Source: Fluviicola sp. (lineage in GTDB: Bacteria; Bacteroidota; Bacteroidia; Flavobacteriales_D; Crocinitomicaceae). From it: 64,000 nt of DNA. The stretch spans positions 124,001 to 188,000 of the forward strand of contig JAGOAZ010000004.1 of assembly GCA_017983675.1 (NCBI GenBank). The letters run 5' to 3'. This document shows, one piece after another, positions 24,431 to 25,036 of this stretch. The position numbers and the translations under genes are program-made. How positions within the stretch are numbered: position 1 is the first letter of the stretch; every line of letters begins with the position of its first letter. The notes below the pieces were generated by a model that was given only the letters and a program-made list of their open reading frames with translations, was not told where the DNA came from and did not search any database.

Positions 24431-25036
24431 GTGAAACAAAAATTTGCATATCACATAACGACAGCTATTCACGACAGTCGAACATCTCAACGTATGATAG
24501 ATTATCGTGCAAGAGAGCGTCGTTTTGATGGAGAGAAACCACTACCGGATGTCAATTACATGTCAAAAGAAATAGAAGAACTAATAGCTGTAACCGTTTC
24601 AGAAATAGTGAACGAAGAAAAGCTAACCATCGCTGCTTTCAATCTATGCCGTGACCACATGCATATTTTGCTCGTTTGTGCAGAGGACGAAGTTCCAAAA
24701 ATCATGCACAAAATAAAAGGTAGAACTGCTAGGGTCTGCAACAAGTGGATCGCCAACAACAATGGGAATCTCCACAACAAGGGGATTAATCCCCTTGACG
24801 ATAGATGTAATCCCCTTGACGGAAAACACTCTACCACGAAACTAAAGGACGGTTCCACGCCATTTTGGACACAGAAATACGGGTGCAATCCGATTAAAAC
24901 AAACGAACATTATTGGAATACAGTTAATTACATTGAGAAAAACAAAGTAAAACATAATTTGCCCAACAATCCCAAATTACAAGCAATTATTCAATGTTTT
25001 GTGAAATCCTATGAAGAATGTTTCAAAGCAAATTAA
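24431..25036 (+). CDS. REP-associated (RAYT-like) Y1 HUH transposase
   Basis: A 201-residue member of the IS200/IS605 Y1-transposase superfamily, of the stand-alone REP-associated type. The metal-binding HUH motif is HMH at residues 76-78 (RDHMHILL) and the nucleophilic tyrosine is probably Tyr167 in NYIEKNKVKH. It starts with GTG at 24431; no ATG lies nearby. Residues about 111-142 form a low-complexity insertion (NNGNLHNKGINPLDD...) encoded by a palindrome and a 21-bp repeat, between the conserved core and the FWTQKYG motif. No left/right ends or target duplication were found, so it is likely a domesticated or single-copy RAYT. DNA cleavage/joining is inferred from the family. Confidence 0.82.
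   Translation: MKQKFAYHITTAIHDSRTSQRMIDYRARERRFDGEKPLPDVNYMSKEIEELIAVTVSEIVNEEKLTIAAFNLCRDHMHILLVCAEDEVPKIMHKIKGRTARVCNKWIANNNGNLHNKGINPLDDRCNPLDGKHSTTKLKDGSTPFWTQKYGCNPIKTNEHYWNTVNYIEKNKVKHNLPNNPKLQAIIQCFVKSYEECFKAN
24778..24821 (+). repeat. Palindrome and 21-bp tandem repeat inside the RAYT gene
   Basis: A 20-bp perfect palindrome (AAGGGGATTAATCCCCTT with one more C/G pair, 24778-24797) is followed by a second copy of its right half: TAATCCCCTTGACG occurs at 24787-24800 and 24808-24821, a 21-bp period that keeps the frame and encodes two NPLD units. It is inside the coding region and has no T run, so it is not a terminator. Confidence 0.8.

Follow-up and report, generated by a model that had tools for sequence, protein, structure and literature searches.

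To our knowledge, it is still unsettled how REP palindromes spread and whether they are moved by RAYT transposases. The closest described system is RAYT subclass 2.4, which corresponds approximately to Bertels group 4, has hosts that include Bacteroidetes and is characterized by the motifs NH[IFV]H, WQ and YIxNNP; Quentin et al. 2018 (PMC6006769) give REPs lying in frame between the HUH and Y motifs as unique to this subclass. A second related system consists of the CGTC-tagged REPs that Di Nocera et al. 2013 (PMC3733652) described; they are known in Bacteroidetes, were reported without a dedicated transposase and are defined by an AA..TT stem of 8–9 bp, a loop of 4–5 nt and a neighbouring CGTC tag. 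The Rickettsia palindromic elements RPE-4 and RPE-6 are likewise palindromes in frame in coding genes, and a transposase link is not known for them.

The locus described here lies in the window, which is the whole 64,000-nucleotide stretch of Fluviicola DNA that was analysed. It contains a perfect 20-bp palindrome that is probably a REP-like hairpin of the RAYT lineage, situated in frame in the gene of the very enzyme that would bind it and would nick and join beside it. The system is best read as a pair of the REP/RAYT type whose hairpin has been kept, and has accumulated, in the enzyme's own gene. As in RAYT/TnpA_REP systems, the transposase is associated with a REP, here with the hairpin within the gene in nearly all homologues. 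With subclass 2.4, the window lineage shares a Bacteroidetes host and an in-frame hairpin in the enzyme's gene, usually located between HUH and Tyr; it is set apart by its motifs, DH[MILV]H, W[TA]QK and Y[IV]xxN[KR]xKH. Unlike that subclass as published, most members of the window lineage are found inside type IIG restriction-modification enzymes. Such fused forms would be missed by the published survey because its pipeline discarded unusually long proteins. The window palindrome resembles the CGTC-tagged REPs as a short hairpin with a stem starting AA..TT, a small loop and CGTC at one end, and may be linked to them; unlike them, the CGTC-flanked palindrome of the window's family lies inside a RAYT gene. 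In contrast to RPE-4 and RPE-6, the palindromes concentrate in the transposase's own gene. In the open-access literature, neither a RAYT embedded in a restriction enzyme nor the exact core sequence of the palindrome was found.

A RAYT-like gene with an in-frame palindrome

The window protein matches Pfam Y1_Tnp with an E-value of 1.1e-10 and carries the motifs DHMH, WTQK and YIEKNKVKH. The Y1 HUH and Tyr catalytic core is present, with H76, H78 and Y167 invariant in alignment A1. Against NCBIfam REP_Tyr_transpos the protein scored 44.4 bits, below the curated cut-off of 80, and its score was also under the cut-off of transpos_IS200. The AlphaFold model has a mean pLDDT of 73 with the HUH/Tyr core in place, and the top solved structures identified by Foldseek were IS608, ISDra2 and the E. 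coli TnpA_REP/REP complex (4er8). The gene is present in a single copy, and neither a strong hairpin pair nor a REP was seen flanking it; it does not fit an autonomous IS200/IS605 insertion sequence, which would have terminal hairpins and several copies. Coordinates of the features are summarized in Table 1.

Table 1. Features of the RAYT-like gene and its palindrome (window coordinates).
Feature	Position	Strand	Basis
Stand-alone RAYT-like Y1 (HUH/Tyr) transposase gene, 201 aa, GTG start	24431..25036	+	Pfam, NCBIfam, fold
HUH motif codons D75-H76-M77-H78	24653..24664	+	H76 and H78 invariant in homologue alignment A1
Variable low-confidence loop, residues 112-139, HUH helix to Tyr helix	24764..24847	+	AlphaFold pLDDT <50; length differs among homologues
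Perfect 20-bp palindrome CAAGGGGATTAATCCCCTTG, coding KGINPL; probable REP-like hairpin	24778..24797	neutral	
GACG adjoining the stem (CGTC tag on the minus strand)	24797..24800	-	Sequence; same tag at most family-f1 loop palindromes
Second right-arm copy with tag, 21 bp downstream, in frame, coding NPLD again	24808..24821	+	
Conserved Trp codon W146, past the loop	24866..24868	+	Invariant in A1
Candidate catalytic Tyr codon Y167	24929..24931	+	Invariant in A1; role inferred from Y1-family motif order

The 14-mer TAATCCCCTTGACG occurs at 24787–24800 and again at 24808–24821, a spacing of 21 bp, and both the palindrome and the repeated 14-mer are in frame within the open reading frame 24431–25036, in the HUH-to-Tyr interval. 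The coordinates thus confirm a first-pass annotation of the DNA, which had described a perfect 20-bp palindrome with an in-frame repeat of its right arm at a 21-bp period and a repeated NPLD. Its core point, that a substrate-like sequence lies in the enzyme's own gene between HUH and Tyr, is supported, and in the model the site falls in a low-confidence loop, residues 112–139 (pLDDT <50), which contains KGINPLDDRCNPLDG; the point has a published precedent in the in-frame REPs of Quentin et al. 2018.

A zero-loop palindrome of 20 bp is expected 0.0006 times per gene of this size and 0.06 times per 64 kb, and dinucleotide shuffles of the window did not yield even a copy with three mismatches. 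A chance palindrome was ruled out by these expected counts and shuffles. The palindrome stretch folds better than its shuffles, with z-scores of −2.9 as RNA and −3.2 as DNA; the predicted fold is a hairpin with an 8-bp stem and a 4-nt loop, and in computed single-stranded DNA pairings the left arm can pair with either right arm. The most likely reading of the 21-bp repeat is a partial duplication or what remains of a second palindrome copy, and a similar doubling is seen at three other loci (L186, L195 and L221; L and G denote loci and genomes).

The transposase domain inside type IIG enzymes

In G026 and G080, the RAYT homologue belongs to a longer open frame, of ~1230 residues. In such fused proteins the Pfam Eco57I match is split around Y1_Tnp, and the PADLOC model PDLC03609 (Eco57I-like) assigns the protein to the type IIG restriction-modification enzymes (E 1.6e-258, and 1e-258 or better across the host proteins); the host protein is an Eco57I-like enzyme to which the fused form adds a Y1 transposase domain. 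The domain is placed between ...AFxWxxEFPxVF and GGFDVVIGNPPY, after the GNSL region and just ahead of the NPPY motif, at a site where type IIG homologues without the domain are uninterrupted, as for example in EFPDVFANGGFDVVIGNPP. A transposase domain in restriction enzymes with so clean an empty-site counterpart links genome defence with REP biology, a link through an embedded domain that was not found described in the open-access literature. In one type IIG gene (L243 in G612), the same site holds an insert (AYHVTWATYNSR...) without palindromes of the window type.

The fused architecture is present in 18 of the 27 tree rows, including a MAG labelled Chloroflexi whose fusion bears a distinct palindrome at this position, in the HUH-Tyr loop. 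The stand-alone RAYTs of the window's genus form a 100/100 clade together with three fused sequences from the window's family (f1) and are nested among fused sequences, and the nearest relative of the window gene is itself a fused one, with 70% identity. A single origin of the stand-alone forms, as against two, was neither demonstrated nor rejected (AU p = 0.17). On these sequence relationships, the window gene is best explained as a putative stand-alone descendant, or offshoot, of a lineage that is mainly embedded in type IIG enzymes. A broader reading, which we hold only tentatively, would make the fusion a composite gene, selfish or defensive: a REP transposase built into a type IIG enzyme would use the coding sequence of the fusion as the main home of its mobile hairpins, and the transposase domain would sometimes leave to stand alone, as in the window.

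Palindromes within and beyond the enzyme's own gene

Fused genes contain up to 11 palindromes in frame (L032), and L195 has 10. The in-gene copies are read as KGINPL or, in a different frame, as TRGLIPL, and 66 of the 68 lie outside frame 0, the frame in which TAA stops the common palindrome types. They account for 10 of the 21 copies in the genome of G150 (P = 2e-25), 11 of 32 in G151 and 5 of 9 in G149, and exceed the expectation from gene length in all ten genomes tested. Type IIG genes with the domain hold 50 palindromes in 64.7 kb, against none in 44 kb of those without it, although counts for fused genes are biased upwards because it was the palindrome that led to several of these loci. 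One of the palindrome-free, domain-less genes sits in G699, where the wider family has 51 copies at other places. Hairpins piled up in the enzyme's own gene, paired changes in their stems and their absence from domain-less homologues together amount to a direct natural test of the movement of REPs by RAYTs.

Palindromes also lie 18–161 bp outside the reading frame at three loci (L188, L190 and L218), placed as REPs are around RAYT genes. The one at L188 (G444) is a perfect palindrome of 48 bp, GCCAACCTACCAGCCAAGGGGTTGCAACCCCTTGGCTGGTAGGTTGGC, 18 bp outside the fused frame. At L221/L222 (G157), numerous palindromes in tandem and in frame, which give TREHAPLPLIQ-like repeats, enlarge the HUH-Tyr loop, and the locus is divided over contig ends. 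In L032 and L113, compared with L192 at residues 216–223, some palindromes seem to substitute residues, the length being that of palindrome-free homologues.

Inheritance alone, in which the gene takes its old insertions along from host to host and leaves dispersed copies behind, would produce an excess of in-gene copies with no preference in cis. Such a history agrees with the neighbouring genes of the RAYT, which differ between congeneric genomes, and with the insertion sites shared by related fused genes (L032, L112 and L113); however, the presence of tandem and variant copies in one and the same gene (L195 and L221) suggests continued local gain, and we regard inheritance as a doubtful account of the whole pattern. 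Carriage of the RAYT by phage or plasmid was rejected, since protein searches gave no matches in plasmids or phages and none in viral contigs.

The exact 20-mer was found in at least 120 loci of an 84,980-genome collection, where ~0.2 would be expected (2.57e11/4^20). The first-pass annotation had raised the case of a palindrome that occurs nowhere else. This holds within the window's own genome, where neither the palindrome nor the 14-mer has a copy beyond the RAYT gene; in the Fluviicola strain of the window the palindrome is therefore not a dispersed repeat, and a dispersed REP family was not found there. It does not hold among relatives: genomes of the genus with the RAYT have 0–3 further copies, and five without it have no exact copy, one of these, an incomplete genome, having a copy with one mismatch. 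The tie between the RAYT and dispersed copies at the genus level is weak (5 of 9 versus 0 of 5, Fisher p = 0.06). No known RNA family was matched at gathering scores at the dispersed copies of the genus.

There are also palindrome-rich genomes in which no RAYT of the clade was found, namely G160 (a MAG with 148 exact copies) and G162, and at E <= 1e-15 the clade profile matched nothing in G503 (43 wider-family copies) or G699 (51). Either the palindromes in these genomes are moved by other RAYTs, or the link is looser than proposed. In G160 (Cytophagaceae TD116_bin49; for example L039, L072 and L116), the palindrome is at the centre of a ~95-bp MITE-like repeat, at which the contigs of this genome often end.

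Abundance of this kind without the RAYT clade is what a general selfish palindromic element would show, one that inserts into permissive loops of coding genes in the manner of the Rickettsia palindromic elements and has no special link to the enzyme, and intragenic REPs and RPEs are indeed known in many genes (PMC3733652). Such an element is nonetheless an unlikely explanation, given that the palindromes are absent from RAYT-less type IIG homologues, are strongly concentrated in RAYT-bearing ones and keep one site across nearly all homologues.

Conservation of codons and stem pairing

Codons were compared among nine family RAYTs that are 53–71% identical to the window protein, counting pairs with the same residue. 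Codon identity is 200 of 208 (96%) in KGINPL versus 2016 of 3715 (54%) in the rest of the gene, and the best other six-codon window reaches 84%; the rare codons GGG, CCC and CTT are used in KGINPL throughout. In G080, the residues are REHAPL instead, yet a different perfect palindrome, CAAGGGAGCATGCTCCCTTG, occupies the same place. The possibility, raised in the first-pass annotation, that homologues carry the same residues in synonymous, non-palindromic codons is clearly contradicted, as both codons and palindrome are conserved.

Stem pairing was assessed for 14 different palindromes, the majority of them taken from the HUH-Tyr loop, with the rows for L188/L190 and L221 taken from outside the automated loop parse. 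Two-sided changes are present at five of the eight stem pairs and 99% of the cells are paired, in excess of shuffles and slid controls; the 99% is partly built in because most of the 14 rows were picked as palindromic, and the two-sided changes are the better evidence, though they stem from this selection too. Of the 26 parsed HUH-Tyr loops, 23 have a palindrome whose stem is 7 or longer, and another two fall short by a single base. In the set obtained by protein search only, 11 of 13 parsed loops have a perfect palindrome. The same-loop palindrome extends across Bacteroidota and other phyla, and is broken or missing in some homologues (L021 and L193). The HUH-Tyr loop is the oldest and most constant palindrome site, and the alignments strongly suggest that the constraint on the hairpin is on structure rather than letters. 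CGTC flanks the loop palindromes in most of family f1, on the minus strand in the window and on the plus strand in G026; outside this family the tag differs (TGAC-like).

A strong structural constraint with letters free to vary would also suit an autoregulatory hairpin, by which the transposase or the mRNA structure limits expression of the gene through the palindrome. The predicted RNA hairpin is stable, and the second right arm would offer an alternative pairing partner. The varied positions of copies in fused genes, and the broken or missing palindrome in L021 and L193, are unlike one regulatory site, however, and make autoregulation quite improbable as the main explanation; it is compatible with the REP/RAYT reading as an added role. 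A protein spacer alone, with KGINPL kept as amino acids and the palindrome a by-product, would fit the conservation of KGINPL in the genus within an otherwise variable loop, but is contradicted by the codon and covariation data, by REHAPL in G080 and by copies read in the TRGLIPL frame, and has almost nothing left to recommend it. Of the three readings offered in the first-pass annotation, an inserted repeat and a self-regulatory site consequently remain, and an inserted or cognate REP-like element is favoured.

Under the REP/RAYT reading, the hairpin is probably the enzyme's substrate. By analogy with E. coli TnpA_REP, which binds REPs, the HUH/Tyr enzyme of the window would bind and cleave its hairpin in single-stranded form. 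Nicking and joining beside the hairpin would then make copies that are kept, and the palindrome copies would owe their origin to this activity. Copies landing in disordered loops of the enzyme's own gene, in either stop-free frame, may be tolerated, and would pass with the gene from host to host and then be re-matched by the enzyme; the hairpin may also bring some benefit. The position of the hairpin, its codon conservation and paired changes, the own-gene excess, the restriction of palindromes to those type IIG genes that have the RAYT domain and the nesting of the window gene among fused forms are computed directly. The longest palindrome in the genus, 26 bp with CGTC at both ends, belongs to a congeneric RAYT that is split by a frameshift or stop (L028/L030; G007:C2:21266-21780).
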